DNA of 48,346 nt from a virus. The position numbers and the translations under genes were made by a program. This document shows, piece by piece, positions 12,653 through 31,861 of the stretch; within the stretch, counting starts at the first letter, position 1, and each line of letters opens with the position of its first letter. The stretch covers positions 1 to 48,346 of IMG/VR virus record IMGVR_UViG_3300032333_000120. One strand, 5' to 3'. A model generated the notes under the pieces. The model did not search any database. It was not told the DNA's origin and worked only from the letters and a program-made list of their open reading frames with translations.

Positions 12653-12669
12653 AAACTTTAATCACTAAA

Positions 12670-13431
12670 ATGGCTAAGAAAATCACTACTAAGAAACTTC
12701 CTAAGACTCCTAAGAAAAAGTTTGGAGAAAGGGCATACACCCTTGGCCAACAATTTGGAGAAAAGGGAGGCGAATGGGGTGCCAACATTGGCTCTGGTGC
12801 AATTGGATTCCCCACTGGATTCGTCAATTCCATCGGGACCCGCCTTGGCAACATTGGCGGAATGGGGCTTGGCAAATACACAGGTCCAATGGCTGAATTT
12901 GGCTCGCTCGCCTATCTGATGAACAAGTTTGGGCCATCTATTGGCAGTGGAGTCGGTGGCATGCTAGAGTCCGACGAATCCAAGAAGATGAGGGTTCAGA
13001 CCGAGGCGGACAAGAAGTACAAAGAGAAGATTTCCGAAAGCATCCTTAACGGCACTGACTCATTCCTTGAAAACGACTTGGATACCGCAGACCAGAATCA
13101 GGACGCTGGCTGGAGGGAAACTATCGCTGGCATTGACCAGAAGAAGTATGAAGAGGTGGCTTCAAAGGCACTTAAGGATGAAGACCCTCAGGCAATCTGG
13201 AATTTCGTGGTAAGGGAAGCCCGTGCAAAGGGTAAGAAGATTAACATGTCCAAGCCAGTCTATCTCCCAAATACGTTTACCAAGGGCGGTCGAAAGTATG
13301 CTTACGCCATCGACCCAAGCCAGAAGGACGACAATGGAAAGAGGACTCTGAAACTCATCCCAATCCCGATTGGCGGTAGGCCGTTCGAGGAGCCAGAAGA
13401 CGCTGAAGAAGTCGGAGGCACCGAGGAATAA
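12670..13431 (+). CDS. Gly-rich basic internal virion protein candidate
   Basis: 253 residues. The N-terminal 20 residues are Lys/Thr-rich. Residues about 25-100 are dominated by Gly with evenly spaced hydrophobics, a glycine-zipper-like pattern that can insert into membranes. The rest is charged and helical with an acidic end. A 17-base A/T-rich leader precedes it. An ejected, membrane-interacting core protein is a reasonable guess. Confidence 0.6.
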   Translation: MAKKITTKKLPKTPKKKFGERAYTLGQQFGEKGGEWGANIGSGAIGFPTGFVNSIGTRLGNIGGMGLGKYTGPMAEFGSLAYLMNKFGPSIGSGVGGMLESDESKKMRVQTEADKKYKEKISESILNGTDSFLENDLDTADQNQDAGWRETIAGIDQKKYEEVASKALKDEDPQAIWNFVVREARAKGKKINMSKPVYLPNTFTKGGRKYAYAIDPSQKDDNGKRTLKLIPIPIGGRPFEEPEDAEEVGGTEE

Positions 13432-13433
13432 TC

Positions 13434-14378
13434 ATGGACGAAGAAATGTACCCAGAGCAGGAACAGGAGCAGGAACAGGAACAGCCCAGCCCCATGTCCA
13501 GCATGGCTGGGATGGTCAGGCAACAGTCCATGACGGAAGCCCAGCAGAATGTCTCCATGGGCTTTAGCCCTTGGGCTCACATCGGAAAGAACTCCGAGAC
13601 GGCACAATTGCAAAAGGCTAGGGCTAGGGGCATGGGTATGTCCGCCCCGCAGGCTCCAGACCCTAGGGTCAGGGATGCACAGTTCTATGCTGGCCTTGGT
13701 GACTATGGTGCAGTCGAGGCCCTCATGAAGAGCAAGGGTGGTGCCATCTTTCAGATGAATGAAGAGGTGGAACTCGATGACGTCGATGAACAGGGAAAGG
13801 TTTACAAGCGTAAGTACTCCCTAGGCCCAAAAGGCACCTATTCGGTGACTGGTCAGGACGGCAAAAGGGTCAACGTACCAGCCTCCATGCTCGCCCGAAA
13901 GGCTGGCGTTGGCTCCATCCCGTTTAAGGGCGGAGACGAGGCGGCTAGGAACTACAGGGGAACCCTGTCTAAACTTGCCAAAATGAACAGGGAGTTGGCC
14001 CAACTTGAGTCCCTGTATCGAAAGAATTCATACCTAAGCAGTCTAGACCCATCCGAAGACGCCGCCATGGCTAGGATGCTCGAGTCCAGCATCAAGACCG
14101 ACTACCTAGCCCTCATGAAGGACATGAAGGGCATGGGAGGTTCAGTGTCCGATAACGACATGGCCATTGCCTCTCACATGGTTCCTCAGCGAGCCACGTC
14201 GGCAATCACTAGGCTTGGTGGAAACGAACTTGCTATCCTGCGTAACGTAAGGGAAAGTGCGATGCGGAAGGCGATGGAGGTAGGCGAAATGAATGGGCTT
14301 GTGCTCATGGATTCTACCCCGAAAGCCCGAATCAACCAACATTTCCAAAAAGGCGTTATCGACACCCAGCCCCAATGA
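13434..14378 (+). CDS. virion-region protein before the giant gene
   Basis: 314 residues. A Glu/Gln repeat opens the protein (about 7-18). A disordered Met/Gln-rich stretch follows, then a strand-rich block (about 105-150) and a helical C-terminal half with coiled-coil character (about 175-290). The stop overlaps the giant gene start (ATGA at 14375-14378), so expression of the two is probably coupled. It may act as a partner or chaperone of the giant protein; this is inferred from coupling alone. Confidence 0.6.
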   Translation: MDEEMYPEQEQEQEQEQPSPMSSMAGMVRQQSMTEAQQNVSMGFSPWAHIGKNSETAQLQKARARGMGMSAPQAPDPRVRDAQFYAGLGDYGAVEALMKSKGGAIFQMNEEVELDDVDEQGKVYKRKYSLGPKGTYSVTGQDGKRVNVPASMLARKAGVGSIPFKGGDEAARNYRGTLSKLAKMNRELAQLESLYRKNSYLSSLDPSEDAAMARMLESSIKTDYLALMKDMKGMGGSVSDNDMAIASHMVPQRATSAITRLGGNELAILRNVRESAMRKAMEVGEMNGLVLMDSTPKARINQHFQKGVIDTQPQ

Positions 14379-17300
14379 TTAACGAACAGGATGGCCAAAA
14401 TGAACAAGAGCAGATTGACCCGCAGACGCTAGATTTAGCGGTCAATCAGGCCATGACTGACGGGCTGAGGCTCGCCTATCAGCCAGACGAACAGGAAGTC
14501 CAGCAGGCTGAAGGCGACTTTAGCGGGAACGAACCAACCCCAGACGAGGTTTGGGAGTATTTTGCTACCAATAGGTACAAGACCTTCGACAAAACCACCG
14601 CCGAGGGCAGGAGGCTTTACGAACTTTTCAAGATAGCCAATAAAGAGAGGAACGATTTCACCCTCAATCAGGTGAAGGAAATGGCCAACATCGTGGCCAA
14701 GGTTCCTTTCGACATCGCAAGCGGTCTTATCAGGAGCCCACTAAAGGCACCAGTGTCCGCACTGGACGGCATGGCCCGAGACCTGCGTGACCTTTACGGA
14801 ATTTTGGCACAGTCCGAAGACCCAGACTCTGTTCTGTTTAGGTTCAAGGACCACATCCTTGGCACTGGCACCATCGAAGACCAGATTGACCAGTTCAACG
14901 AGGCTAGGTGGTTCAACAATCGTTCCACTGAACTCGAAGAGGGCAGGGCCACTGTGCTTGAGGACTGGGTTCCAAATGATTACAAGGGATTCGTAAAAAG
15001 CCTGATTGACCCGAAGTTGGCTAACGCCCTCTCCTACATCGGTCTCGAAACTCCTCACCTGCTACTCGGTGCTGTCAGGAATTCTGGCAGGAAGGCTATC
15101 GCCGATTCGGTCAAGTCGTACAAGGGCTCCGTGCTCGGCAAGGTTGCACAGGAAGAATTTGAAAAGGAAGCCGCCAGCACGCTCGGCTCCATCACCACGA
15201 CTTGGAGGGAGACCTATGACGGAGTGGCGAACCGAATGAAGGAATACTCCATGCGTGCACTTGGTAGCACCATGGCTGGAACCGCCGATGCAGTCGCAAA
15301 ACCATTTACCTATGTTCAACAAAAGATTGCCCAAGGTTCGACTGCCATCGCCGAAACCGCTGGCTCAAATCCGACAGTCCTCCGTAACGCCGCCCAAACT
15401 GCTCTTGCCGACGCTGGAGAAAGGACAATCGGCGAAGGGCTCACCCTTTCGCCCATTCGTTCAACGATTTTCTCGCTTGGTGTAAAGCCACTTGCGGAAT
15501 ACGTCAGCGTTCTAGGAAACGAAATCGTGGACTACGCCAACGGCGTTGTTCAGGTTAAGTCGCAGAACATGGGCATGGGCATGCTTGAACGCCTTGCCTC
15601 TAAGAATGGTAGCAGGGTTCCGATGAGTGCTGAGGCACTTGCCGTAGCCAAGTTCACTAACGTCGTAGTTGGATGGCCAGCGTCCATGGCTGTTCCAGTG
15701 CTACAGAGGGCCGTCGGCGACGCCGCCTTCATGGGAACGCTTGGATACCTGTCGGCACGTGGTGCTGGTGCGGCCAGTGGCGTAGGTATCGGTTTCGCTT
15801 GGGGTGGCCTCTCTGGTAGCCTTAGGCACGTCCATAACGTTTACAGCCAGAATCAGGGCCATCTCTACATGATTGAGAATTTCGACAATTCTCAGATTAA
15901 CATGATTGAGGCCAAGAGCCCAGACAACGCCAAGCACATCAGGGCTACGCTCAAGGCCGTCGATGCCATGGGCGACAACAGAATCAGTGCCACCATGAGG
16001 GCTGTATTCTCGCAGTCATTCACCGCCAATCCAGAGGGTCAGTACAGGTTTGGCACCAGAGAAGCCCTCATTAAGGAATTCGGGCCAGACCAAGCCATCT
16101 TGAGCCTCCCGCCCAACATCATGGGAGTTGAGAATCTCAAACTCACCAAGAATGGGGCACCGATGAAAATCCAGTGGATTAATTCATCTGCGGCCACTCC
16201 AGAGACCATCGCCCACGAACTTGCACACGGACACCTCACTTCGATTTTCGAAAAGGATGCCGACTCTGTTGAAATCGTAAAACAGTTCTTTGGTAGCGAA
16301 AAGGATGGTGGCGTAATCAGCGATGAGGCCATGGCCCATCTTTATGCCGATTACTACATCAGGCAGAAACTTCCTCAGGACGCACAGAATCCTAAGAACT
16401 TTGCATCCATCCTCAAGAACATGAGGGGCGTGATTGAAAGCATGCGTAAGGAGCAGGGCGGTAGCATTTCCTTCTTCGATAGGATGGTTACTGGGCCAGA
16501 CGGAACCATGGTTCCAGAGGCACTTAATAACTACGGAGGCGTTCTTTACAGCCTAGTCCAAGAGGCCTTTGCGTATTCGTACTCGAATAGCATCCTGAAC
16601 AAGAGCCCAGACTACTTCCTCAGGAATCCAGAGTCTAGGAGCCTCAGGGCTAGCCTTGAGAACCTATACATGCTTCACACCCAAAGGGCTGTAGCAAAAA
16701 TCGAGCAGGCTGGAGTTCTCATTAAGCCATACAACCCGAAGGACAAGAATCCTAGGTTTACTTCTTTCATGTGGGAGGACGGAAGGTATCTCCACATCCC
16801 TCTCCTCGATGCTTGGACCCAGCGTATCATGACGCAGGCAATGAGGCACGGAGACATCAACGTGTCGCTGATGAGCCCAGAAAGGGCTGAGGCATACTTC
16901 AGGCAGACTGGCAAAGATAGGTTCGCAAACTCCGTCAAGGGCGGAAAGGCGATGAAGGGCAAGGCTGAGGTCGATGAAATCATCACCCGCAATACCGAGA
17001 AAATCGTCACCTCTCTGGACAGTCTTCCAGCGAACGAACAGCCCAAGTACAACGTTGACCAGAACGGCAACAGGACCTTGGACATGACCACTCTTAGCAA
17101 GAAGCAGTGGGATACCATCATCAACTCTGGTGCCTACAGCAAGTCCGAGATGGATGACCTTAGGGGTATCGTTGATATGGTCAGGAACACCCGTGCTGGA
17201 AAGCCAGTGTTCAACACCCTTATCGCCCAGTACCTAGGAAGGACGCATCAGGTCGTCATCGACGGACAGGTTAGGCGTCTCACTGGCAAGGACGTACCAG

Positions 17301-20300
17301 TTACCAATAGGCACTTCTCCCCGTACGCCATCGAACTCAGGTTCGATAAGTACGACGAGTATGGCAACCCGCTGAAGAAGCCTAAGGGCCATGTAACTAT
17401 CCATGCCGTTGACGTTCGTGTGCTCAACAGGCGTAGGATGAAGATGTGGCAAAGGTCTGACGTGCGTGCACTGTTCACCGATTTCGGTCACTACACTAGG
17501 ACGTTTGCTGACTACATGGACAACCTTTCTCAGGACGCATCCAGCAGGATGACTTCCGTCGATAGGTTCAAGCCAGAGTTCGGAGCCAACGCAGAAGCCG
17601 TCAGGGACATCATGTATGAAACCTTCGGCGGAAGAAAGCGTGTGGACGAATCCTACATCAACGCTCCTAAGTCTGGATACAGTGGCAATTCTGACGGACC
17701 TAACTATCCGTTCCACTCCCTCAGATTTGAACTGCTGGCCAACATCGAGAAACAGCCACACGTATTCCAAGAAACGTTTGGCAACAAACTTTCATACCTT
17801 CCTTACAACCACGTCAACGCATACGAGGGTGTAAGGCGTAACCTGATGGTTGGCGGATTTGTCGAATACCCAGTCGGTGAAAACGGCTCGTATTGGGCTA
17901 ATCACGTCGGACACGAAATCAGGAGAAGCGGTAGCAAGTTCACCCTCTTCAGCCCATTTGGCCTAGTACTTGGAGTATTTAAGACAGCCGAAAAGGCGTT
18001 CTCCTACGCCGAGCGTAGCCTTAAGAGCCTTCCTCAGGAGGAAGGTCGTGGTTTTGTGGGCACCGAACAGGGCCCAGCACAAGAAGGAGACTTGGAAATG
18101 AGGACGTCGGTAGGAGACGTCACCAGTCTCTCCACCAACATGATGATTGGCAGGGGCGGAATCTACGACGCCGAGGTCATGCTCGAAGATAATCCTAACT
18201 GGGAAAGGTTCTTGGATGACGTTCAGAATAGCAAGCATGACGCAATCCTCCACGGAAGGGATGACAACTGGCTTTTCAGGATGGCATCCATCAGGCTTGG
18301 CGATATCCTTACGGACAAGAGGCTCATTCAGGATTACCCGCATCTGGCGGATTACGAAATCGTATCTAGCCCACTTGGCGTCTTGCACGGAGGTTACGTC
18401 GAAGGTCAGTTCCCGTCCAGAAATAGCAACACGCTGTTCGCACTCCCTCAGTGGATGCTTGAGGGTGCCATGGCCAAAGGCCTAGAAAAGAGCCTCAAGT
18501 CACTGCTACAGGTAAGGCTTCAGGAACTGATGGCCTTCTCCGACGGAAACGTTGGCTCTGGCAAGTTGGCGTTCGCAGACGGAGACATCAGGTACATTGG
18601 AAACACCCATGTCATGGGTGTGATGAGCAGGCTGGACAATGAACTTCAGGCACTGAGGAAAGACAATCCAAACGCCACCCTCAAGGAAGTCCTTGAGAAC
18701 GAAGCCGTAAAGAACATCGAAGGAAATCTTACTACTGGATTCTGGGGATACTCCGTCACCACGTCGAAAAGGGGTGGAACCAAGGTTAAACTGGACGTTG
18801 TAAACCGAAAGTTCGGAAGCAGGTCTAAGAACGTATTCGGCCTAACTGAGGCGGAGCACGACATAATCACTGCACATTTCCTTTCCATCCTTGAATCGTT
18901 TAAGGGTAAGAGGAAGAACTCCTACGTCATTCAGGCACTGGGCTCTACCTTTGTATTCGTCAACCCAGACGTCCTTAAGATTCCACAAAACCTTGCTGGC
19001 ATTCTTGATAAGCCACTTCTCGTAAGCCCACAGTCGCAAAAGCAGGGCACATTCAGGGAAATCTACAACGACACGATGGCCATGGGCATGTCCATGTTCC
19101 ATCATGTCTCTAAGCAGGGCGACAGGAAGAGGGCCAACGCAACACAGCCACTCGACCTAATCGAGTCCATTTCCAATGCCAATGCCGTAGAGAACGGAAT
19201 GGTTGATAACGTAAGTCAGGACGTAAGCGGTGAAAACATTTTCTACGGAGACCCTAACGTTTCCGTCCAAACCGCCGTAGCACTGGAGGGAATCCAAGAC
19301 TATGCCATCATTAGCATTGGAGGCAACTTTGACCCGACGCCAAGAGAGACCGCAAAATCGCTTCCAGCGGCCAGCGTGATTACTCGCACGACTTCCTTTA
19401 GTGGGCTTGCTGGATGGACGAATAGAAAGCCTGCCGTCGGAGTCACAACCGAAACTAGGGTTCTTTCGCCATACTCCGCAACGGCGTCTCTTGGTGCGAA
19501 GAATAAGGGCATTCAGGTTTCCATCAACGCCATCATGGCTTCGAATGGCCTGTCCCCATACCTGTCTTCTGAGAACCTAAACCAGTACACCAATGGTAGC
19601 CTCTACAAGCACGTTAAGAACGGGGAGTTTTCTAAACTGTTTGCGTACCTTTATCAACAGGAGTTCCCAAATGAGTTCAAGCAACTCATGCAAAACGCAC
19701 AGGGGGGAGTTAATCCTTTCTCCGATTACAGAATCGTAAAGCGTATTGCTCAGGGCATTTTCAAGAAGGGCATCGAGTCCCCACGTGAGTATGCAATCTT
19801 CCAGTTCGCTACGGCACTGAACCAGATTCTCCTTGGCGAGGAGATGTTTGCTGGCACTGAAACTGGCCAGAAGGCTGTCGCAATTGCACAGGAAGACCTG
19901 AAACGTTCCTCTGGCACGCAGGCTGTTTCGATTAGCAATCTTCAGGCCAATGGATTCTATGACGGAAGGTACCTTGGTGCTGGCTCAGTCAATGAAGGCG
20001 TTGCCAGAATCCTGCTCATCGCAGAACGCATGGGCAAAGGAAACCTTGTGGACGCTGGGTACAGCAGTTTCGTAAGGTCCTACGAAGGCTCTGATGCCTC
20101 GGTCAAGCAGGCCGAATCCTTCACCAAGGCATTCAGCACCACCGCAGAATCCATCGACCAGATTCTCGTAGCGGCTGGATTCGACAAGACCAAGCCAATC
20201 AGCCCAGTGGCAGAAATCGGAAGCACCAACATGATGGTTGGTGGGTTCAAGGCCTCTCTGAGTGCGAACGAACAGATGCTTGAGGCCGCTGGCATGCTCA

Positions 20301-23300
20301 GGCTTGTCGTCACTGACAGTGGAAAGATGTACAAGGCTTTCGAATTCAGCGACAAGGGTGCTAGCCTGACGCTTGGTGCAGTCGATGACAAGATTCACCT
20401 TCTTCCGTTCATCAACGACCTAGACTCCCCTACGGCTGGGTTCGATAACTTCATCAAGGAGATTCAGCAGGCATCAGCCAACAAGGATGAAATCGCATAC
20501 AGCAACGCCATCAGGAAGATTCCTAGCGTAGGCTTGAGCGAAATCCTGAAGCATGACCTTCTCTACAAGTTCTACCCGTCCCTCAAGAACGTAAGGGTTT
20601 CCTTCGTCGAGGGCTTCGGTGCTGGCTACTACCCAGTCAGGAACCAAATTGTCCTAGGCATCGACAGGATGATTTCTGGTGCAGTTAGGGAGGCAAATGG
20701 TCTGGAATCGGACAGCGTAATCATCCCAGACAACGTTCGTTCCGATAGCGTCCTCAACTCGCTCATCCACGAAGTACAGCACGCCATCCAGAGGGCTGAG
20801 ACTTGGACTCAGACTGGAGACATCACTGAGAGTGCTCAGTACAAGCGTGGTCTATACAAATACCTTATCAGGAACATGATGGGCGTAGGTGGTCCTTTCT
20901 ATGGACCACTGCTTGAGGCGAAGAGCAAGGGCACCATCGACCTTGAGGTTGTAAACGCAAAGGAGGCTGGCCTCGACGACGCCGATATCGCAAAAGCCCT
21001 AGAACTAAGTGCACCAGAAGTCGAAAGGCATCTCGTTGAACTCCTCGACAGCCCGTTGGCACAAAGGGTAGGTGAACTCGCAATTCCGAACGGCGTTAGG
21101 CTGTTCGAAGCGGATGCCATGGCCCTTGAGAGGCTTGCGTTTGAAATGGGCTCTGGAACCAAGGAGCACACGAAGATTTCCGAGATGAGCAGGTCCCTGC
21201 TGGAACTCAGTAAGGAGGCAAAGTCGCTCTCTGATTCTGTCAGGTCTGGAAACATTAACCCAGAAGTTGCACGAACCCTCCTTGTGGGGCCGAGCGACAG
21301 TCTTCTTGCTAGGCGTAACAGGACTCTCGACCTCCTCAGGGCTACCATGGGTGAGGACGTCTCCTCCCTTGCGTTCGAATACCTATCCCACCACGACAGG
21401 TATCTCGAACTGATGCTTGATGTGACTAGGGCTACCGACTCCATCAGGTACAGCCTGTCCAACGGGCCAGCATTTAACGCCAACAAGATTAGGCATCTTG
21501 CTGAATCCCTTGGCTTGATGCAGTACTACGGCCAGACGAACGAAAAGCAGGCCTATGAGACCGCCGAGCGTCGGAAGATGACGCAGGAGCAACTCAATGC
21601 CGAACAGCCCAAGGCTGGTTTCTCTGGCTCGATTGGTACCATTGGTAAGAACAATTCACTTCGTGACTTGGGCCTGATGTTCAAGCGTGGTCAGGTTCCT
21701 AAGGTGGCCAACATGATGATTGGTGGCTACGGAATGGGCAACGACGTCAGCAAGGTCATCTCCGACGACGGAAGGCTTGAGGCACTCAGGCGTGTCGCAC
21801 GACTCTCCACCATCTCTTACTATCTCATCGGAACGCAGGCAGAACTCAGGAAACTTGGAAGGTATGCCTTCTCCGCAAGGGGTTGGGAGGTTATCGACGG
21901 GCAGGCTAGGCTTGTCTACAAGACTGGCATCATTGAGACCCCACTCCTCTCCCAGTCGAGCAATGAGCGAAAGGTTGAGAAGTCCTATGGAGCCCGAGGC
22001 AAGGTCGTTCCTATCGCTACTGGCTTCGGCGACGGAGCAGACAGCAGGCTATCAATCGGAAACGGCCTGTCCGAGAACATGCAGAATTCCATTTCCCTTG
22101 AAGAAGTGGCAAGGCTGGTTGAGGGAACTGTCATACTTGAAAACGAACTAAGGACTCCATCTGAGGCCGTAGATTCCGTTTACAGGCAAGACTTCCCTGA
22201 GCACGTTTTGGCTGATGAACTTGCCACTGTGCTGTCCAGCCGAGGCGTATCCGCCGAAGGACTCAGGATGGCCAACATCGAACTCATCCAGAGCAATTTC
22301 GCAGGAGTCACGCTTTCACGTGAGGAGGTTGCGAACATCCTCGCAATCAACCATCAGTTCATAGCAACTGAGATGTCCTACGGCTCCGCCTTCGGGCGTG
22401 AGAGGCTTAACAAGGCTGTCAAACAGTCTTCGCCTACCCCAGAGATGCTCATCACGGCGTTGAAGCGTAAGTGGGGAACGCATTACGAGAACCATCTCCC
22501 CAACGCACTCAGGTCCATTGGGATTGCCCCAGAGGCTTGGACTAGTCTTAACGAAGACACTCCAAAGAGGTTCGGCCTCTTCAAGGCCATTAAGGGCAAA
22601 CTTGTGTTTAGCCCAGAAAGGCCAGATTTCATACCAGTTGAGGTATGGGATGCTTGGGTGGCAGACAAGAAAGCCAAGGGCGTATGGCCAAAGGACAGGA
22701 AGTACATCGAGATTCCTAGGGACGAACTCCACGACATCTTCGACCAGTACCCTGACAAGTCCTTCGGAGAGGGAGAATTGGCAAAACTCAATTCCCTTTA
22801 TTCCCAGAGGTGCCTCAAGATTAAGCCGTTCTTCGAGCACTTCATGTCTCGAATCGACGAGTTGGACAATCAGTTGAAGTTCTCGCTCATCGACGAAGCC
22901 ATCCTTCTTAAGACCAGATTCGAGCCAGAAGCCATCAGGACTGTAAAGTTCGATAACTTTGGCATCAGGACCATGAAGGCCGAAGAGATGGGCAACCAGT
23001 CTCAAACCGATGCGTTCAATGAGTTGCTCGGTGAGGGCGACGGGTCCGACCAGAACAAGGGCAGGGTCGGTCCGTTTGGACCAAACATCCTGCTCGGAGA
23101 TGTATTCAGGACGTCTGGCTCTCCAGCCGACTCAATGATGTTCGGAACCAACCTTCTGCTATCGCCGACTGCTGGCCTTACGACTAACAGGCAGTTCAAT
23201 TACACTGGCGGAGAAGCGTCTGATTCCGAGAAGGGCATACCCCTTGCTTGGTACAAGCCAGTACGCAACGAAGAGGGCAACATCGAGAGCAGTCTTGGAA

Positions 23301-26300
23301 TCCCAATCCAATCTGCAATCCTCACCAATCCGTACCACACCATTTACCACAATGAGTCGTACGTCGGCGTCGTAGGATTTACCAATGGCACTGGTGCACT
23401 CATCACCCTAGACACTTCTCACCAAGGTCTGACCAGAATGGTACAGGGCTTGTGTCATAGTTGCGATGAGGTCTTCAGGCGTTCCGTTCAGGCAGTGGAA
23501 CGACTCCCAGAAGAGGTGAGGGCTGATACCCTTGAAAGAATTGAGCAGGAAAAGGCTAGGACTGTCGGAATGCTAAAAGGCCTATACGGAACGCTGTCCA
23601 TGATTTCCTCTGGATGGCAGTCCAGAAACACCCTCCTAGTCCCATATCAGGCGGCGGCTAGTGCTAGGACTCACATAGAGGGAACGACGGACAGGGTTTA
23701 TTCCGCCAAGGGATATCTGGACAAGGATGGTTCGTTGGTGGTCGAAGGAGTCAGGGAGAATGTCCATGACGCAAACCCTGCATACACTGACATCGTAACG
23801 ATTCCATACCTGAAGGACCAAAATGCTCCTCAGGTTAACGTGGACGTTTCCATGTCGCGACTCAAGAAGGTCGTACTTGCAAGCGTCACTTCAGACCTTG
23901 AAAGGGCATTCCTGTTCAACGGAGAGATTACGACGGAAAGCGGTCCAAACATGAGGACCATCTATCGCTCTGGCGATATCCATGTCGCCTTTAACAAACT
24001 CATCGGAAACGGAATCGCCACTCCGTCAGAGCCTACCGAAGTCACAATCACTCTCAGGCAGGATAACATGTACGCCTACACTGGCGTCCATGCACTTCAC
24101 TCGGCACTTTACCAACTGTCCCTCAAGAAGAACATCCGACCAGAAGTGCTGGCTGGTGCCATTCAGAATTCTCCAGAGTTGCTGATGCTACTTCAGCAGA
24201 CTCATTACAACGGAAGCAACGTATTCCCAGTCGAAATCGGTCATGGAGAGGTAAAGGTTTCCGCAAGCACATACGCACTCGGAATGGTGCCAATCCTTTC
24301 GAAGGCATTCGCAAAGACGGCAGTTTACTACCAGCACGGAAGGTTGCAAAACGCTGACATTCTCACGACCACGCAAAGGGCTGAATTCGAATCCCTTCTG
24401 GCCGACGCAAACAAGGAAGTAAACATTCCAGAGAATGGAACTCTTGACCCAGAATACGAAGCGAGGGTCGTTAACTTCCTTACGTCCCTAGACCCGTCGC
24501 AGAAGATTATCATGGCCGAGATGTGCTCGGACGTGAACTCGAACATGCTTCTGGACTCCAACATCACTGGCATGCAGGGCATGGCCGCAATTGAGATGCT
24601 TGGAGCATACCCAGCGATGGAAGCCATCCTGCCAGACTTCAAGGAGCAGATGCGTGAGCAGATGCGTGAGTACATCAAGCGTGGTGCCATCCAGTGGGAA
24701 CAGGGCGTAAGCGAAAAGATTGCTGACCCTATTCAGCGTAAGAGCGACGTGTCCGAGAAGCCCTACAAGGCGGCGGTTCACGTCATGCTTCGTGAGTCCA
24801 ACGCAATTGCTTTCGCAAGATTCCTGCTGGGCCTCAGGGAGTTGGAAAAGTTCCCAGCGTACGAAATCACTAGGGGCGATTCTAGGTACAAGTTGACCGA
24901 GCCAGAGAGAGTCGGAATGGAATCTGGCCCGTCTGTTCAGGCTAACTTCAGGATGTCTCTTCGCACGGCACAAGAAGGGTGGGCGAACGTAAGCAACGAG
25001 GAATTGGGAGTGGCCAAGAAACTGCTCCTCGATGGTCTAAGCGAACCAATCAAGCGTCAGCACAGCCTCAACGCCTCTGGCCATTACGCCAACAACGCAC
25101 CAGTCTATCTCGGCGTTAGAGAAGTTGCTGGAATGACCCTTGCACAGATGTTGCTAAGGGAGGCCAACTACGGAGACCTAGGTACACTCGCCTTGGATAC
25201 CAATTCGGAAGTAGGCTCAAGCAGTGCCAATATCGTACTGCCCAAGAAAGCAGTATCCATTTCTAGGGCGTTCGCCAGAAAGCACCTCGTCGATATGCTG
25301 ATTAGGGAGGCGAGGAAGGCTGGAAGCGGTAAGATTGCCCTACAGCCTGCCCGAACTGCTACCTACGGAAGAAGGCTTCTCGGAAAGGGTCAAATCATGT
25401 CCGCTGGAGAGACTGGCCTAGAAGGCCAAAAGGGGTACTTCATGGACTACGGAATTAGGTCCATCGGAATCGGAGGATACCTCTCGCCCATCAATCGTGA
25501 TTTCACTGGTGCACTCCCATACTCGGACGCAACGTTCAAGCATGGAGAAATCGCACCATTCGGAGAAAAGGCCTCCATGGGCTTTGCGTTCAAGAGGCTA
25601 GAAGATGGAAGGATTGTAATTAACATCTCTGGCGACGTCACGGGATACAAGAACTTCAGCACCCTGTCCAATCGTAGCGGATGGAGCACTCTGGCCATGG
25701 GTGTAAACCTTGAAGAAGCACTTGGGTATTCCCATTCGGACGGACTTATCTCGCATACCGACCCAAAACTTTTTGGTCAGAGCGTAAAGACCATCTCCTC
25801 AACCTCTACCGAAAAGATTGCCAGACTGACCGACATTTATGGCGGTGCTTGGCGTATCGAAGCCTTGAAGAAGGCTAGGAAACTAATGTCTGGAGTTCAT
25901 GAGTTGAGGGAAGTGAACCAGAAACTCATGTCCGTAGGAGGAGAGTATGGTGCTATCTATCATGAGTCGCTTGAGAGAATCGCAAGCGGTACCGCTGACC
26001 ACAACAACGCCAGAGACGTGCTTACGGCAATGGCATTGGTTAGGGATTCATCGACTGACAACTACGTAACGCTTACCATCCCAGCGAACGCAACTGCCGA
26101 AGATGTTAAGGCGGCCATCTTCACCTTCCTGATGGAAAGGGATGGCGTCACTAGGTTCTACAGGGAGATGTACTACGGAGGCCACTTCGACTACAACAGG
26201 TTCGGCTCTACGCTTTCTTACTCTAACCACGACGAGGGCAGTCCTTTCGCCGCATTAATCATGGGAGAGAAAGGTCGTAGCCTAGCATCCCAATCGGGAA

Positions 26301-29300
26301 GCGGAAGAAGGGACCAAGGCTCGCTCCACCAAGCCCTTGAGCAGAACGTAAGGGATATCGCCTCCAAGAGGGATTCTACCTCTGGAAGTCTTTCCTCTAG
26401 CCGTAGCACAACTGAAATCAAAGACGTTGTTTCCTTCCTCTTTGAAAGCAATCCGCACCTTGTTGCGGACGTCGAGAAACTCGCACAGTTGGCAGTGGCA
26501 AAAGACCATGGATATCTGATGCCAGACTTGGAACGCCAACTCGCCATGAACGGCGACAAGCGTTCGGTAATCGAAGCCCTGTTCCCCAACAGGCCAGAGT
26601 TGACCGAGTTCGCATGGGACAACGCAGAGACGTCCAACGTATCCATCGTTCCCAAGCGTGAAGGTAAGAAGATTGTCAGTTACTTGGTTGGCTACGACAT
26701 TCCAAGCGGTATCGACCAGACCACTGGACGAGTCCTTACCTCCAGAAAGGTCACATCCGTAAAGACGCTATCTGAGGCTGAGGCACTGAAGGCAAAGTTC
26801 ACCATCAGCACCAGCAAGGCCGAGATGGCTAGGGCTATCGAAACCCTTACCAATGAGACTGGAAGGTTCTCCATCAATCCTCAGGCTGGGGTCAAGGACC
26901 ACTACGCTCCAGTAAGGCGTAAGCAGATGATTAAGTCCGTCGAAGCGGAAAACGGGTACGAAATGAAGTACACGAATACCAAGGAGTTTACTGTCGGAGA
27001 CTTGGACCTTTCCCTCACTAGGGAGCAGGCCGAAGCACTCAGTGCTCAACTGTCCGTCAGGGATTCGCTTCAGGCCGACGTCATCGACGTGTCTAGGCCT
27101 AACATGATGATTGGCGACGCAAGCCACACGCCTAAGGAAATCGAAGGCATGCTTAGGCGTAAGATTAACTTCGGCGTGGGGCAGGGAAGGGTAGAGTTCT
27201 CCTCCAAACTCATGTCCGTCATTGCCTATGGTAAGATGAAGTCTGGCAAGAACCTGTATCCGCACTCCCTTACTGGCTCCGAGTGGGCCAAGTTCATTAA
27301 GGAGAACGGCGTGTCAAAGGATGAAGTCAGGATGACTGGACTCATGTACCTTCTTTCGGACAATTCAGGAAGGCAGATTAGCAGGCTGGAACTGGCTGAG
27401 TTCCTTTACACTGTCTATCCGAGGAACTTCAGGCAGGACAGAGGTGGTCCAGTGGCTGACAGTTCTCACCTGCAAGCGATAACTGGAAGGACGAACGAAG
27501 AAAAGGCGTCCAGAGGAGAATTCCTCTATCCGTTCATATTCAATGCCGAGGGCAAGGAAAAGCAGTCCGTGGATATCCATAGTGAAAACCTCAGGCTTAT
27601 CCTGACCAATCTGGATGTCCTTAGGAATTCTGGAGAAGAGGGCGTAGCCCGTGCAAACGCAGTCGAGACGGCAATCAGCAAGACTCTGGATGAACTCGTA
27701 GATGTCCTTGGAATGCCTAACATGTTTGGCAAGGAAGACACCTTGCAGGCCAAACTTGACGCCGTAATCAAAAGGGCGGCTGAAGGATTCAGCAAGGACA
27801 CTCCTGCGGAATACGTCGCAGGAACCCAGAGGTTGGTAAGGCCAGCACACTTGGAACTTCTCGTAAGGTCCGCCGTCGATGCGAAACTCGCAGAGGTAAG
27901 CGGTATCGCAACTTCCGCACTGGGAGACATTGGAGTTAAGGACCCTTGGAACTGGGGATTCTCCGACGTATCCAATGGCTACACGGATTATCCGCACACC
28001 GACAATAGTGGTGTCAGCGTAGGAAACTACACCAACAGCACCGATGCGGTGCTTCGTGTGGAAAGCGTAACCCCACAGCAGAAAAACCTGTGGCAACAGG
28101 GCGTAATCACTTCGAACGGAAGTGCACATGAAGGCTACGCCACTTATCGTGGTGCGTACACCAGCAGTATCTGGCTGACCGAACTTTGGTCTCATCGAAT
28201 GAAGTCGGAGTTCGAGAGGTACACTGGCATACTGAAGAAGAGGATGAGCGAATCCACCAACCCTCAGGACATCGAACGCATCCAGTCCATCATCAACGCC
28301 ATGGAGCGTGTGAAGATTGTCAGGTCTAGTTGGAACGACCATCACGGGGGCCAGATGGGCAATGCTGGCCACTACAGCACCAAGATGGGAGGCGTCTTCC
28401 AGTTGGGCCACATAAGGACTACGGCAGGCGTGATGCTCTCCTCGCACGGACCTCAAGTCGCTGGAGAAGGCGTTCATTACATCGACGACCAGAATCCAGT
28501 ACTGGGCATCAAGAAGGAAATTGAGCCGACGTTCATGATTGAAGAAATTCAATCTGACACGTTCCAGTACAAGACGTTCGGAGACCCAGCGTCTCCCAAG
28601 TTCGCACTGCCAGATAGCATCGAACAGGCCGCTGGACTTGCCAGCGTGGCAGACATCACAGTATTCGAGAAGCAAATCCTAGACTTGGAGGATAGCATGA
28701 CTCAGGTGAGGCAGAGCCTTGCAGAGCAAATCAACATACTCAAGTCTAGGGGCAACCACGTTAACAGGCAGTTGCAGACTTACCTTACTAGGCAAATCTT
28801 GGACGCCACCAGCCAAGTCGAAAGGCATCTCCTGTTCAGGGATTACATGGCCCTCTGGGGTGATGGCGATTATGAACTGCCACTCGTAAAGGGTAATGGC
28901 GTAATCAAACTTAACCCAGAGCAGGCCGAATACATTGGCGTAAGCGAGATACCGAATTACGAATGGAACCCAAGATTCAAGTACGATTCTGACAACGCAC
29001 AGATGCTTGCTGGACTCACCTTGGCTTCGTTCAAGGCGAGCAGGCTTGCCCTTCATGAATTGAGTTCTGGAAGGTTCGGCGTAATGGACATGGAAGGTCA
29101 CAGTTCTTCCCTTACGGACGCTGATAACTTCAACAGCAGTTCGTCCCTTACCCCGTCTCTGCTACTGTTGCAGTATGCCATGATGGACGAGCAGGCACAC
29201 ATGTCTGCAAACGAAATGAACCTTGCTCTGGCTGAGACTAGGCCTGCCAACTTCGATTACGACGCCATGGCACAAAGGCTCGTCGAAAGGGTCGAGAAGG

Positions 29301-31861
29301 CAGTCGATGCGTGGAAACGCAGAGACCCAGCATTCAAGTACAACAACCATGGAAGCAGGCTGATGAAGGTAAAAGTCCTGAACGGATTCGTTTCCATGCT
29401 GAGGGATTTGCAGGCATCCAACCCAGACAAGATTATCAACGTTACTCAGGACAGGACTGAAGGAAATTGGCAATCTCCAGGCCATGTGAACGAAATCGCA
29501 TCAGCATCTGCCACTGGAACCACTCCACACAACTTCGACTTCTTCGATTTCGACCAACTTGGAGACCACTTCGGACAAAGGCATGAGTTCGATGGAGTCA
29601 CCAATGAGCGTAAGGTCAGGATTAACAGGAACGAGTTGATGACCAAGATTAGCAACAATAGGACTGTCCGATACAGGATGAGGTCCTCGATGGCTACCAA
29701 TGCACTGTCTCAGTTGCTGATGGATTACTCGTCTCTCTTTGCGGTACAGCGTAATATCGGAGACACCCCAAAGAAGGTTGAAGAACTGAAGGCCAAGGTC
29801 GCAGAAATGCGTTCAAAACTCCCAATCGCTAAGACCTCAGACCAAGGAGACCCGCATATCATCACGTCCCAGCCGTTCGGCATCGAAGACATTTACAGGC
29901 CAATCTCCTTGCAGGGAACTGTACTTCGTGCGGCCAATGCTGGATACAGGCAAATCGGCATGACCGATGCACGCCACCACTTTGTACGTGGATGGGATTC
30001 TGTTCCAAGGCTTGGTTTCGTGCTCGGTGCCAGAAAGCGTGCTTTCAACCTTACTGGCATTGAGAACTCGAAGATGAGCATGTCGCTCAAGGCGTTGAGG
30101 CTACTGCCTGAAGAAAGGTTTAAGCAGTTGCACGGAGGCCTGTTCCAGAGGCTCACCATGGTTCCTGATGCAGAACTCAGGCCTATGATGGAGGGCAAGA
30201 ACTTCGAACACAATGGCGTCAATGCGAACCTTGCACAGCATTTCGTCCATGCCATTGCCGAGGCAGAGGAGGTCCACACGCTCGGAGACAGTAGCATGCT
30301 GTCCACGGCCAGCCTGCAAAGGGCTGTCGCTGGAGACGCTGAAACGATGTCCGCTATCGTCTCTGGCGATGGCACTAGGATGTTCAGGTGGCAATACGAC
30401 CTTAACGAAGTCTTCTACGAAGATGGCGGAAACGCATTGGTTGGTCCTGACGGAAAGCCAATCGGACACAGGAAGCAACCGACTAGGTTCTGGATGTCTC
30501 ATTACGGAGAAGCCGTAAGCGGAGACAAGACGGACAACCAAAGGATGTTTGACGGCATCGCCGCAAACCCAGAATCCGTCTACATGCTCGTCGAGTCTGC
30601 CAAGGCGTCTGGCTACGTAGGCAACTACGGACTGCCACTTTGGTATCTCAAACTTAACTACGCTGGTCAGAATGTTAAGTCGTTGCAGAAACTGTCCACC
30701 GACTCGTTCGAAAGGCCAGTTCTTGAGATGGCTGACGGCAAGTATCGAATCATCGACCCGAAGACATCTAAACTGATTATCGAGACCGACAATCCAGCAC
30801 AGGCTAGGGAAGCCATGCTGTATCACTCCAAGTATCTTGGTTCGTTGCCTTACATCTCTAAGTTCCTCGCCGAGTGGAAGCCTTCTGGCGGATACATCTT
30901 CTCAGGATACGGACTTGGCGTAAGGCTTGAAGACCACCGCATCAACGTCGGAGACACTCAGGCACAGGCAATCCTTGATTCCAGCCGTGAGCCTTTCAAG
31001 TTCGCCACCAACATCAGCGTCGATGAATCGACCACCTTTGACACGTCTCAAGGTGAGATTGGAAGGAATGAACGCTCCAAGGTGTTCAGGCGTTTCGGAC
31101 CTAGGATTGAACTGACTAATGGATACAGCCACACGATTTCCAATGGTGCGGCCAAATCTTGGAGCCAGATTCCACAGCAGTACCAAAACATCTCGATGAG
31201 ACTCCTGACCAAGATTCACTTCGGTCTGGAGCCGACGCCTGAGAACATGGCCAAGGTCATCAAGTTGATGAACTCGAACAGCACCACTGTTATGAGGTTC
31301 GCCCCAGAGTTCCAGACCGACGCCCAGCGTAATGAGTTCAGGCGTAAGGTCATCGCTGGCATCCCGAACATGATGGTCGGTGGCGTCGATGAAGGCGGTA
31401 GGCCTCAGGCCAACCCAGAACTTCTAAAGTGGCTGGATAACGTCGCCAATAACTACGACAAGGCAGGGAAACTGGCTAGGGCTGTTCATGACATACAAAC
31501 TGGTGCCCTGTCTAGGGAAGAGGCGGCGAGCAAACATGGAACCACGTTGCACAACATACAGGTCACGGAATCAAGGCTAAGAAAAAGGGGCGTACCAATC
31601 ACTCCAAGGATGGGAGGAAAGGCTCCACTTTCTCAGGCTGAGTTGAGGGTAAACGAGGAGACTGGCAAATACGGACTATCTCCTAGGGCGATACAAAGAA
31701 TAGTGGAACTGAGACAGCAGGGATACTCGCTCAGGGAGATTGCAAAGGACGTAGGCGTATCCAGTTCTAACGTACATAAGTACCTATCAAGAAAGAACAT
31801 GGATGGAAGATTGGATGAAGACAGGAACAGGATGCCAGACGAACCCGACACAATGCCATGA
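14375..31861 (+). CDS. giant 5,828-residue polyvalent virion protein
   Basis: One open frame of 17,487 bases. Visible parts in order: acidic Gln-rich N-terminus (1-60); amphipathic and Gly/Ala-rich hydrophobic segments (about 110-145 and 425-490) that could contact membrane; HELAHGH metallopeptidase motif (614-620); a second motif HEVQH (2132-2136) in a region like the LPD23 domain of polyvalent proteins; a G-E-K-G-containing segment (about 3963); a module at about 4250-5250 with FMIEEIQSD (4720-4728), also typical of polyvalent proteins; and two C-terminal helix-turn-helix motifs (about 5710-5739, 5779-5807). N-M-M-[IV]-G-x occurs five times. Proteins of this class are packaged and ejected with phage DNA and act early in the host cell. 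The position at the end of the virion block and before lysis fits. Most of the length has no recognised function. Confidence 0.85.
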   Translation: MINEQDGQNEQEQIDPQTLDLAVNQAMTDGLRLAYQPDEQEVQQAEGDFSGNEPTPDEVWEYFATNRYKTFDKTTAEGRRLYELFKIANKERNDFTLNQVKEMANIVAKVPFDIASGLIRSPLKAPVSALDGMARDLRDLYGILAQSEDPDSVLFRFKDHILGTGTIEDQIDQFNEARWFNNRSTELEEGRATVLEDWVPNDYKGFVKSLIDPKLANALSYIGLETPHLLLGAVRNSGRKAIADSVKSYKGSVLGKVAQEEFEKEAASTLGSITTTWRETYDGVANRMKEYSMRALGSTMAGTADAVAKPFTYVQQKIAQGSTAIAETAGSNPTVLRNAAQTALADAGERTIGEGLTLSPIRSTIFSLGVKPLAEYVSVLGNEIVDYANGVVQVKSQNMGMGMLERLASKNGSRVPMSAEALAVAKFTNVVVGWPASMAVPVLQRAVGDAAFMGTLGYLSARGAGAASGVGIGFAWGGLSGSLRHVHNVYSQNQGHLYMIENFDNSQINMIEAKSPDNAKHIRATLKAVDAMGDNRISATMRAVFSQSFTANPEGQYRFGTREALIKEFGPDQAILSLPPNIMGVENLKLTKNGAPMKIQWINSSAATPETIAHELAHGHLTSIFEKDADSVEIVKQFFGSEKDGGVISDEAMAHLYADYYIRQKLPQDAQNPKNFASILKNMRGVIESMRKEQGGSISFFDRMVTGPDGTMVPEALNNYGGVLYSLVQEAFAYSYSNSILNKSPDYFLRNPESRSLRASLENLYMLHTQRAVAKIEQAGVLIKPYNPKDKNPRFTSFMWEDGRYLHIPLLDAWTQRIMTQAMRHGDINVSLMSPERAEAYFRQTGKDRFANSVKGGKAMKGKAEVDEIITRNTEKIVTSLDSLPANEQPKYNVDQNGNRTLDMTTLSKKQWDTIINSGAYSKSEMDDLRGIVDMVRNTRAGKPVFNTLIAQYLGRTHQVVIDGQVRRLTGKDVPVTNRHFSPYAIELRFDKYDEYGNPLKKPKGHVTIHAVDVRVLNRRRMKMWQRSDVRALFTDFGHYTRTFADYMDNLSQDASSRMTSVDRFKPEFGANAEAVRDIMYETFGGRKRVDESYINAPKSGYSGNSDGPNYPFHSLRFELLANIEKQPHVFQETFGNKLSYLPYNHVNAYEGVRRNLMVGGFVEYPVGENGSYWANHVGHEIRRSGSKFTLFSPFGLVLGVFKTAEKAFSYAERSLKSLPQEEGRGFVGTEQGPAQEGDLEMRTSVGDVTSLSTNMMIGRGGIYDAEVMLEDNPNWERFLDDVQNSKHDAILHGRDDNWLFRMASIRLGDILTDKRLIQDYPHLADYEIVSSPLGVLHGGYVEGQFPSRNSNTLFALPQWMLEGAMAKGLEKSLKSLLQVRLQELMAFSDGNVGSGKLAFADGDIRYIGNTHVMGVMSRLDNELQALRKDNPNATLKEVLENEAVKNIEGNLTTGFWGYSVTTSKRGGTKVKLDVVNRKFGSRSKNVFGLTEAEHDIITAHFLSILESFKGKRKNSYVIQALGSTFVFVNPDVLKIPQNLAGILDKPLLVSPQSQKQGTFREIYNDTMAMGMSMFHHVSKQGDRKRANATQPLDLIESISNANAVENGMVDNVSQDVSGENIFYGDPNVSVQTAVALEGIQDYAIISIGGNFDPTPRETAKSLPAASVITRTTSFSGLAGWTNRKPAVGVTTETRVLSPYSATASLGAKNKGIQVSINAIMASNGLSPYLSSENLNQYTNGSLYKHVKNGEFSKLFAYLYQQEFPNEFKQLMQNAQGGVNPFSDYRIVKRIAQGIFKKGIESPREYAIFQFATALNQILLGEEMFAGTETGQKAVAIAQEDLKRSSGTQAVSISNLQANGFYDGRYLGAGSVNEGVARILLIAERMGKGNLVDAGYSSFVRSYEGSDASVKQAESFTKAFSTTAESIDQILVAAGFDKTKPISPVAEIGSTNMMVGGFKASLSANEQMLEAAGMLRLVVTDSGKMYKAFEFSDKGASLTLGAVDDKIHLLPFINDLDSPTAGFDNFIKEIQQASANKDEIAYSNAIRKIPSVGLSEILKHDLLYKFYPSLKNVRVSFVEGFGAGYYPVRNQIVLGIDRMISGAVREANGLESDSVIIPDNVRSDSVLNSLIHEVQHAIQRAETWTQTGDITESAQYKRGLYKYLIRNMMGVGGPFYGPLLEAKSKGTIDLEVVNAKEAGLDDADIAKALELSAPEVERHLVELLDSPLAQRVGELAIPNGVRLFEADAMALERLAFEMGSGTKEHTKISEMSRSLLELSKEAKSLSDSVRSGNINPEVARTLLVGPSDSLLARRNRTLDLLRATMGEDVSSLAFEYLSHHDRYLELMLDVTRATDSIRYSLSNGPAFNANKIRHLAESLGLMQYYGQTNEKQAYETAERRKMTQEQLNAEQPKAGFSGSIGTIGKNNSLRDLGLMFKRGQVPKVANMMIGGYGMGNDVSKVISDDGRLEALRRVARLSTISYYLIGTQAELRKLGRYAFSARGWEVIDGQARLVYKTGIIETPLLSQSSNERKVEKSYGARGKVVPIATGFGDGADSRLSIGNGLSENMQNSISLEEVARLVEGTVILENELRTPSEAVDSVYRQDFPEHVLADELATVLSSRGVSAEGLRMANIELIQSNFAGVTLSREEVANILAINHQFIATEMSYGSAFGRERLNKAVKQSSPTPEMLITALKRKWGTHYENHLPNALRSIGIAPEAWTSLNEDTPKRFGLFKAIKGKLVFSPERPDFIPVEVWDAWVADKKAKGVWPKDRKYIEIPRDELHDIFDQYPDKSFGEGELAKLNSLYSQRCLKIKPFFEHFMSRIDELDNQLKFSLIDEAILLKTRFEPEAIRTVKFDNFGIRTMKAEEMGNQSQTDAFNELLGEGDGSDQNKGRVGPFGPNILLGDVFRTSGSPADSMMFGTNLLLSPTAGLTTNRQFNYTGGEASDSEKGIPLAWYKPVRNEEGNIESSLGIPIQSAILTNPYHTIYHNESYVGVVGFTNGTGALITLDTSHQGLTRMVQGLCHSCDEVFRRSVQAVERLPEEVRADTLERIEQEKARTVGMLKGLYGTLSMISSGWQSRNTLLVPYQAAASARTHIEGTTDRVYSAKGYLDKDGSLVVEGVRENVHDANPAYTDIVTIPYLKDQNAPQVNVDVSMSRLKKVVLASVTSDLERAFLFNGEITTESGPNMRTIYRSGDIHVAFNKLIGNGIATPSEPTEVTITLRQDNMYAYTGVHALHSALYQLSLKKNIRPEVLAGAIQNSPELLMLLQQTHYNGSNVFPVEIGHGEVKVSASTYALGMVPILSKAFAKTAVYYQHGRLQNADILTTTQRAEFESLLADANKEVNIPENGTLDPEYEARVVNFLTSLDPSQKIIMAEMCSDVNSNMLLDSNITGMQGMAAIEMLGAYPAMEAILPDFKEQMREQMREYIKRGAIQWEQGVSEKIADPIQRKSDVSEKPYKAAVHVMLRESNAIAFARFLLGLRELEKFPAYEITRGDSRYKLTEPERVGMESGPSVQANFRMSLRTAQEGWANVSNEELGVAKKLLLDGLSEPIKRQHSLNASGHYANNAPVYLGVREVAGMTLAQMLLREANYGDLGTLALDTNSEVGSSSANIVLPKKAVSISRAFARKHLVDMLIREARKAGSGKIALQPARTATYGRRLLGKGQIMSAGETGLEGQKGYFMDYGIRSIGIGGYLSPINRDFTGALPYSDATFKHGEIAPFGEKASMGFAFKRLEDGRIVINISGDVTGYKNFSTLSNRSGWSTLAMGVNLEEALGYSHSDGLISHTDPKLFGQSVKTISSTSTEKIARLTDIYGGAWRIEALKKARKLMSGVHELREVNQKLMSVGGEYGAIYHESLERIASGTADHNNARDVLTAMALVRDSSTDNYVTLTIPANATAEDVKAAIFTFLMERDGVTRFYREMYYGGHFDYNRFGSTLSYSNHDEGSPFAALIMGEKGRSLASQSGSGRRDQGSLHQALEQNVRDIASKRDSTSGSLSSSRSTTEIKDVVSFLFESNPHLVADVEKLAQLAVAKDHGYLMPDLERQLAMNGDKRSVIEALFPNRPELTEFAWDNAETSNVSIVPKREGKKIVSYLVGYDIPSGIDQTTGRVLTSRKVTSVKTLSEAEALKAKFTISTSKAEMARAIETLTNETGRFSINPQAGVKDHYAPVRRKQMIKSVEAENGYEMKYTNTKEFTVGDLDLSLTREQAEALSAQLSVRDSLQADVIDVSRPNMMIGDASHTPKEIEGMLRRKINFGVGQGRVEFSSKLMSVIAYGKMKSGKNLYPHSLTGSEWAKFIKENGVSKDEVRMTGLMYLLSDNSGRQISRLELAEFLYTVYPRNFRQDRGGPVADSSHLQAITGRTNEEKASRGEFLYPFIFNAEGKEKQSVDIHSENLRLILTNLDVLRNSGEEGVARANAVETAISKTLDELVDVLGMPNMFGKEDTLQAKLDAVIKRAAEGFSKDTPAEYVAGTQRLVRPAHLELLVRSAVDAKLAEVSGIATSALGDIGVKDPWNWGFSDVSNGYTDYPHTDNSGVSVGNYTNSTDAVLRVESVTPQQKNLWQQGVITSNGSAHEGYATYRGAYTSSIWLTELWSHRMKSEFERYTGILKKRMSESTNPQDIERIQSIINAMERVKIVRSSWNDHHGGQMGNAGHYSTKMGGVFQLGHIRTTAGVMLSSHGPQVAGEGVHYIDDQNPVLGIKKEIEPTFMIEEIQSDTFQYKTFGDPASPKFALPDSIEQAAGLASVADITVFEKQILDLEDSMTQVRQSLAEQINILKSRGNHVNRQLQTYLTRQILDATSQVERHLLFRDYMALWGDGDYELPLVKGNGVIKLNPEQAEYIGVSEIPNYEWNPRFKYDSDNAQMLAGLTLASFKASRLALHELSSGRFGVMDMEGHSSSLTDADNFNSSSSLTPSLLLLQYAMMDEQAHMSANEMNLALAETRPANFDYDAMAQRLVERVEKAVDAWKRRDPAFKYNNHGSRLMKVKVLNGFVSMLRDLQASNPDKIINVTQDRTEGNWQSPGHVNEIASASATGTTPHNFDFFDFDQLGDHFGQRHEFDGVTNERKVRINRNELMTKISNNRTVRYRMRSSMATNALSQLLMDYSSLFAVQRNIGDTPKKVEELKAKVAEMRSKLPIAKTSDQGDPHIITSQPFGIEDIYRPISLQGTVLRAANAGYRQIGMTDARHHFVRGWDSVPRLGFVLGARKRAFNLTGIENSKMSMSLKALRLLPEERFKQLHGGLFQRLTMVPDAELRPMMEGKNFEHNGVNANLAQHFVHAIAEAEEVHTLGDSSMLSTASLQRAVAGDAETMSAIVSGDGTRMFRWQYDLNEVFYEDGGNALVGPDGKPIGHRKQPTRFWMSHYGEAVSGDKTDNQRMFDGIAANPESVYMLVESAKASGYVGNYGLPLWYLKLNYAGQNVKSLQKLSTDSFERPVLEMADGKYRIIDPKTSKLIIETDNPAQAREAMLYHSKYLGSLPYISKFLAEWKPSGGYIFSGYGLGVRLEDHRINVGDTQAQAILDSSREPFKFATNISVDESTTFDTSQGEIGRNERSKVFRRFGPRIELTNGYSHTISNGAAKSWSQIPQQYQNISMRLLTKIHFGLEPTPENMAKVIKLMNSNSTTVMRFAPEFQTDAQRNEFRRKVIAGIPNMMVGGVDEGGRPQANPELLKWLDNVANNYDKAGKLARAVHDIQTGALSREEAASKHGTTLHNIQVTESRLRKRGVPITPRMGGKAPLSQAELRVNEETGKYGLSPRAIQRIVELRQQGYSLREIAKDVGVSSSNVHKYLSRKNMDGRLDEDRNRMPDEPDTMP
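16214..16234 (+). other. HELAHGH metallopeptidase motif in giant protein
   Basis: Residues 614-620 form HExxH plus a third His, within a Thr-Ile-Ala-H-E-L-A-H context typical of the active-site helix of zincin peptidases. A third ligand further downstream is not obvious. Confidence 0.6.
18137..18154 (+). repeat. NMM[IV]G motif copy 1 (residues 1255-1260)
   Basis: Encodes N-M-M-I-G-R, preceded by Ser-Thr and followed by Gly-Gly. First of five copies of a motif that probably separates segments of the giant protein. Confidence 0.7.
20228..20245 (+). repeat. NMM[IV]G motif copy 2 (residues 1952-1957)
   Basis: Encodes N-M-M-V-G-G, again preceded by Ser-Thr. It lies about 700 residues after copy 1, just ahead of the HEVQH region. 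Confidence 0.7.
20768..20782 (+). other. HEVQH motif, LPD23-like metallopeptidase region
   Basis: Residues 2132-2136, in the context L-I-H-E-V-Q-H-A-I-Q-R-A-E. An upstream Y-x-P/I-x-L strand region and a downstream N-E-x-Q-A-Y-E-T-x-E-R-R helix (about residues 2388-2400) match, from memory, the layout of the LPD23 domain, in which the late Glu could be the third zinc ligand. Assignment without a profile search is tentative. Confidence 0.55.
21710..21727 (+). repeat. NMM[IV]G motif copy 3 (residues 2446-2451)
   Basis: Encodes N-M-M-I-G-G after Val-Ala. With copy 2 it brackets the HEVQH (LPD23-like) region as a segment of about 494 residues. Confidence 0.7.
27101..27118 (+). repeat. NMM[IV]G motif copy 4 (residues 4243-4248)
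   Basis: Encodes N-M-M-I-G-D after Arg-Pro. It lies directly before the polyvalent module that carries the EEIQSD motif. Confidence 0.7.
28532..28558 (+). other. EEIQSD motif of a polyvalent-protein module
   Basis: Residues 4720-4728 (FMIEEIQSD). It is preceded by G-H-Y and H-I-R motifs about 55 and 40 residues earlier and followed by an A-A-N-A-G-Y-R segment at 5186. Further upstream, around residue 4300, a block reads W-A-K-F-I-K, then G-V-S-K-D-E-V-R-M-T-G-L. This series is characteristic of a widespread module of large polyvalent phage proteins whose activity is not known to me. Confidence 0.55.
31367..31384 (+). repeat. NMM[IV]G motif copy 5 (residues 5665-5670)
   Basis: Encodes N-M-M-V-G-G after Ile-Pro. 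It precedes the final ~160 residues, which carry both helix-turn-helix motifs. Confidence 0.7.

Follow-up and report, generated by a model that had tools for sequence, protein, structure and literature searches.

Why does a phage with a genome of 48 kb carry a single gene of 5,828 codons, and is the product of such a gene kept in one piece? The question is raised by the virus record IMGVR_UViG_3300032333_000120 of IMG/VR, of which positions 1 to 48,346, the whole stretch analysed here, are referred to as the window. The giant gene extends from position 14375 to position 31861 on the + strand, the strand on which all features of the giant described below also lie, as a single frame that is kept in more than 25 relatives and is under purifying selection. 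It is found that a short delimiter motif recurs in the encoded protein in non-homologous contexts and that its copies evolve in concert, a property that is new here. This motif, and a rapidly exchanged cassette bounded by it, were overlooked in a preliminary description of this DNA, and they indicate that the protein may not be kept in one piece.

A short motif recurs in the giant protein and changes in concert

In the window copy, the motif has the form NMM[IV]G at residues 1255, 1952, 2446, 4243 and 5665, and NLMVGG at residue 1156. The six copies are NLMVGG (residues 1156-1161, positions 17840-17857), NMMIGR (1255-1260, 18137-18154; not retained in every lineage), NMMVGG (1952-1957, 20228-20245), NMMIGG (2446-2451, 21710-21727), NMMIGD (4243-4248, 27101-27118) and NMMVGG (5665-5670, 31367-31384). 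When the family is considered, the general form is any residue, then a hydrophobic one, then Met or Ser (or Gln) depending on the lineage, Val, Ile or Leu, then Gly, Ala or Ser, and finally Gly or Asp. The relatives used for this comparison were gathered via TerL, which led to over 100 contigs of IMG/VR; of the 29 records searched, 26 match the N-terminal 1,000 residues of the giant, and 15 further relatives were added later.

The motif sites are kept family-wide, and their letters vary by lineage but match between the sites inside one genome. A clade with 100/100 support has Ser in place of Met as the third motif residue at each of the five core sites, and in the relatives L092, L093 and L174 there is a second shift, to [QM][IL]TG, at four of the five. 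None of 5,000 lineage permutations is as extreme as the observed pattern, for sites that were placed by eye. When 11.6 million position pairs are scanned without supervision, the ten pairs that the five core sites can form all rank within the top 40. Such concerted change of short, unlinked sites points to one partner shared by all of them.

No homology is detected among the flanks of the five sites, and the motif is therefore not a piece of a duplicated domain. It is also not a general head-protease site, since the other genes have no covarying copy and the string MMMLG in the portal protein, which shows no covariation with the motif of the giant, does not make the switch. A simple 5-mer test of 25 other polyvalent open reading frames (ORFs) finds no such motif, with a test that also misses diverged members of the giant's own family. 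The literature, which was covered incompletely, yielded no account of a giant phage protein whose delimiter motif evolves in concert.

The modelled motif copies lie in predicted flexible regions and bracket a metallopeptidase module

AlphaFold models were made of residues 500-1300 and 1880-2600, the latter of moderate quality, with a mean predicted local distance difference test score (pLDDT) of 62. All four of the modelled motif copies lie in loops with a pLDDT below 50, as compared with a background of 32% of residues in the 1880-2600 model and 12.5% in the 500-1300 model. The copy at 1156 is in such a loop, the copy at 1255 is in such a linker, and the linker that carries the copy at 2446 has pLDDT values of 26-35. 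A small beta domain (residues ~1163-1219, positions 17861-18031) is modelled between the first two copies.

The copies at 1952 and 2446 exactly bracket a folded block between two disordered linkers, the metallopeptidase module (residues 1958-2445, positions 20246-21709), having its HExxH motif at residues 2132-2136 (positions 20768-20782). When compared with 80 phage polyvalent proteins, this module is matched by hhalign with a probability of 99.6% and an E-value of 1.5e-24 over 87 columns; these proteins were chosen by the string LHEIQHAIQ itself, and the match reaches about 60 columns upstream of that string. By this profile comparison, the module is assigned as a metallopeptidase of the phage polyvalent type, in which Glu 2390 (positions 21542-21544) is a candidate third ligand.

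A second HExxH motif is at residues 614-618 (positions 16214-16228), in the N-terminal module (residues 1-1155, positions 14375-17839), which is the best-conserved, low-indel part of the family alignment. Downstream of it is an invariant glutamate, Glu 730 (positions 16562-16564), in the context EExFAY, which is a candidate third zinc ligand. Both HExxH sites are conserved in the family, the N-terminal one being HExxxH in one clade, and this variant is also known among polyvalent proteins (PMC5512222). The model of residues 500-1300 has fold matches in BFVD, the best with an E-value of 2.9e-17, to proteins of uncultured phages; the template modelling (TM) scores are low, and several of the matched proteins are named large polyvalent protein associated domain. 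A fold search of the PDB with both models gives nothing significant, the best match of residues 500-1300 being a zincin toxin protease with an E-value of 0.06.

Searches of the giant against Pfam and PHROGs yield nothing beyond a C-terminal helix-turn-helix (residues ~5774-5806, positions 31694-31792), matched by Sigma70_r4_2 at 24.7 bits, below the Pfam cut-off of 25.7. Effector domains (ADP-ribosyltransferase, nucleotidyltransferase, kinase and others) are not recognised with these two databases. A further block, EEIQSD (residues 4723-4728, positions 28541-28558), is invariant in the family alignments. The preliminary description, made from the letters of the DNA, is thus borne out in its two HExxH motifs, in its remark that most of the length belongs to no nameable family and, in the form of the single subthreshold C-terminal domain, in its helix-turn-helix. 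Its assignment to the polyvalent type is likewise in agreement with the profile-profile match of the 2132 module and with the N-terminal fold matches.

A motif copy marks the edge of an exchangeable cassette

Comparison of close relatives reveals a hypervariable, exchangeable cassette at residues ~1216-1951 (positions 18020-20227). The relatives L087 and L096 are mostly 85-100% identical past residue 1954 and 20-28% identical inside the cassette, and L171 and L172 are 90-100% identical elsewhere and 44-72% inside it; in the pairs L093/L174 and L098/L100 the pattern was looked for and is not seen. Six pairs have the right breakpoint at residues 1947-1954, and a seventh pair has it at 1967; identity at the DNA level restarts at or just past the motif. 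The third-position divergence between L087 and L096 is 0.66 in the cassette and 0.07-0.13 past the site, and this jump marks the difference as recombinational exchange and not just as rapid amino acid change. Considering all breakpoints, 13 of 22 are within 40 residues of a motif site, as compared with about 1.9 expected, when six contig-end artefacts are excluded; the pairs are not independent. The tail beyond the site at 5665 is also variable, with breakpoints at 5698 and 5703, and the helix-turn-helix lies in this tail, past the last motif copy.

The exchanged cassettes are still homologous: one histidine (His 1576, positions 19100-19102) is aligned in 36 of 36 copies, with a Lys or a Gln four residues later, and it is a possible active-site residue. 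A function for the cassette was sought with Pfam and PADLOC, which return only matches at the level of chance. The cassette probably meets host-specific targets.

Cysteine depletion and gene order point to a probable ejected virion protein

The giant has four cysteines in 5,828 residues, whereas in a set of the other proteins of this phage the cysteine content is 1.1% (P ~1e-22). The giants of the family have 0-10 cysteines each; L170 and four other relatives have a giant without any cysteine, one of these being 5,676 residues long. Six consecutive genes just upstream (positions 8962-14378, + strand), which have no family assignment, have no cysteine in 1,792 residues and are candidate partner ejection proteins. 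Among the control proteins, T7 gp15 and gp16 and N4 gp50, gp51 and gp52 have no cysteine. This depletion is not specific to ejection proteins, since the major capsid protein of N4 is also cysteine-free.

The giant is the final gene of the virion block, directly ahead of the lysis-type genes. Gene order and cysteine depletion together support, without proving it, that the giant is an internal virion protein, which is probably packaged and ejected into the host. The virion location proposed in the preliminary description is thus supported indirectly. If the cysteine signature is trusted, the giant would work like the ejection proteins of T7 and N4. T7 gp15 and gp16 are likewise encoded just after the tail genes and cysteine-depleted, but they are much smaller, and the giant has no sequence match to them. 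The N4 virion RNA polymerase gp50 (3,500 residues) is closer in its properties, being giant, cysteine-depleted, the last of its virion block and provided with an HExxH domain; unlike in gp50, no T7-like RNA polymerase domain is found in the giant with Pfam and PHROGs.

Possible processing at the motifs and alternative explanations

It is possible, with about even chances, that the giant is an ejected protein of the polyvalent type whose modules are delimited by one recognition motif and are cut apart by a built-in zincin. In such a mechanism the giant would be packaged inside the virion and ejected into the host, and flexible linkers that carry the copies of the motif would join its folded modules. 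One of the two built-in zincin metallopeptidases would then cut at these copies, generating some six to seven products of roughly 1,156, 100, 700, 500, 1,800, 1,420 and 160 residues, of which the product of residues 1256-1951 would be the fast-exchanging cassette, probably facing host-specific targets. A cysteine protease inside the giant is an unlikely agent, considering the four cysteines of the window copy and their absence from several relatives.

Processing is favoured because the sites are shared and covarying, lie in linkers where they have been modelled, bracket the metallopeptidase module and bound the cassette. Repeated sites of one kind are also a property of protease-processed polyproteins, and here the five core sites evolve in concert. 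In addition, it has been proposed that polyvalent metallopeptidases process themselves, and DdrB of phage P1 is processed ahead of packaging (PMC5512222). The coincidence, in one clade, of the HExxxH form of the N-terminal zincin with the change of the motif to Ser is suggestive. The stronger proposal, a true giant polyprotein of a tailed phage with about six sites that co-evolve with the embedded metallopeptidase and with separately acting ejected products, including a host-facing cassette, is somewhat less probable than even.

Several points weigh against processing. Cleavage is only inferred. The N4 virion RNA polymerase, which also has an HExxH domain, is packaged uncut (PMC5512222). The residue after the motif glycine varies. 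The sites at 1156, 4243 and 5665 are in a low-indel context, and the last two are outside the models. A direct match to the family PF18818 (MPTase-PolyVal) is found neither in the window, at E-values up to 10, nor in eight relatives. The coincidence between the HExxxH variant and the Ser motif is a single event on the tree.

The concerted change, the location in linkers and the absence of the motif from other genes are explained equally well if the motif serves for docking or packaging and not for cutting, its copies binding one multi-copy, co-evolving partner such as a scaffold, core or chaperone protein, for which the six uncharacterised cysteine-free genes of the virion block are candidates. 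Docking alone, however, leaves unexplained why the metallopeptidase module has a copy on either side and why copies are placed at the borders of the exchanged cassette, and a partner with a matching lineage change is not identified; it is the main alternative, tenable but clearly less probable. It is rather unlikely that the giant is one uncut ejection protein, in which the motifs are hinges that aid its unfolding through the tail. The position, size class, HExxH motif and lack of cysteines are as in N4 gp50, but all five sites switch together, and hinges would require no lineage-specific letters. Very improbable is the use of the motif as a series of internal translation starts giving shorter products, which is suggested by the ATGATG in the motif DNA of the window clade and is rejected because several Ser-clade copies have no Met (NLSTGG, RLSVGD, LQSVGG) at sites that are retained.

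Integrity of the giant gene and genome context

The giant gene is an open frame of 5,828 codons that has a single terminal stop and would give a full-length protein of about 640 kDa, its 17,487 nucleotides being 36% of the window, and it shares an ATGA with both neighbours (positions 14375-14378 and 31858-31861). The G+C content per codon position is even over the whole gene. When the window is compared with its closest relative, L082, third codon positions diverge about two to five times faster than first and second positions in every bin of 530 codons, showing that the entire gene is translated and under purifying selection. Complete copies in the family are 5,615-6,460 residues long, each in one open frame, and over 25 relatives, from metagenomes that were assembled independently, have the gene in this form; an internal stop within the match occurs in only two records, as one TAA (G005) and one TGA (G037). 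An assembly or ORF artefact therefore has a negligible probability and is already refuted by the same frame in independent assemblies, at 25-79% identity, together with the purifying selection throughout. This is in accordance with the preliminary description of one true, uninterrupted gene with overlaps at both ends and uniform codon use, filling about 36% of a 48-kb genome, and the misassembly that it named as a possible refutation is ruled out by the same comparison.

Upstream of the giant are genes for TerL, portal, scaffold, major capsid and tail-type proteins, and downstream are holin-like and spanin-like genes, the portal and lysis genes being named by reading of their sequences and not by a family match. 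A protein that reads as lysozyme- or transglycosylase-like (LIESGNDDLAVGDRRSSDGPALGRFQIHQSAW), without a Pfam match, is encoded at positions 41179-41868. Three tRNA genes are present on the - strand in the leftward early block, for Arg(cct) at 33049-33120, Pro(tgg) at 38313-38388 and Pro(ggg) at 40023-40097. The window ends are an identical direct repeat of 123 bp (positions 1-123 and 48224-48346), from which the contig appears to be complete at 48,223 bp. A portal-type gene is divided by the contig ends (47562-48223 and 1-1570), where the repeat, either an assembly overlap or the join of a circle, does not break the gene.

Relatives of the giant protein are not found in named phages, and relatives of the giant and of TerL, sought as a guide to the host in 84,980 bacterial and archaeal genomes, are not found there. 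Of the named phages, C75C1 (L102, OQ984151) is the nearest by TerL, at 33% identity, and its large protein is unrelated to the giant when compared by hidden Markov models. This protein of 2,769 residues (ORF from 38742 across the origin to ~7573) has repeats of the form [LAM]P[DE]F[NST]V, in which PDFxV occurs in six or more spaced copies; its shuffles show nothing similar, and this string may be a second motif of the delimiter type. In L115/L116 (record G027), which is 64% identical by TerL, the giant is replaced by an unrelated large protein of ~3,706 residues, on the - strand at 15821-26953 of the joined stretches.

Comparison with known systems and implications

The giant belongs, as judged from its metallopeptidase sequence and its modelled fold, with the large polyvalent proteins of phages (Iyer et al. 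2017, PMC5512222), with which it shares the giant multidomain build, the polyvalent-type zincin, the N-terminal fold and the HExxxH variant. It differs from these in its greater length (up to 6,460 residues), in having no recognisable effector domains and in its concerted motif. In phage SPN3US, the prohead protease gp245 recognises a short motif, AXE, at many places in ejected proteins (PMC10052503); that system differs in its motif, in its separate protease and in removing mostly N-terminal propeptides, and a protease of such a family is not found among the genes searched here. The layout also resembles that of virion polyproteins of eukaryotic viruses. Adenovirus precursors and pp220 of African swine fever virus are cut between modules, at sites of a hydrophobic-x-Gly-Gly-like form, by a cysteine protease. 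This likeness is in layout only and serves as a lead, the giants described here having 0-10 cysteines and zincin domains.

Self-processing of polyvalent proteins has been suspected earlier, and the section of that work on peptidases names no cleavage sites (PMC5512222). In the family described here, evolution itself marks the candidate sites, as five dispersed motifs that switch jointly, that lie in linkers where modelled and of which one coincides with the recombination breakpoints. If processing at these sites is true, a phage of 48 kb would deliver several large proteins from one gene, and the location of its rapidly exchanged module would be revealed.
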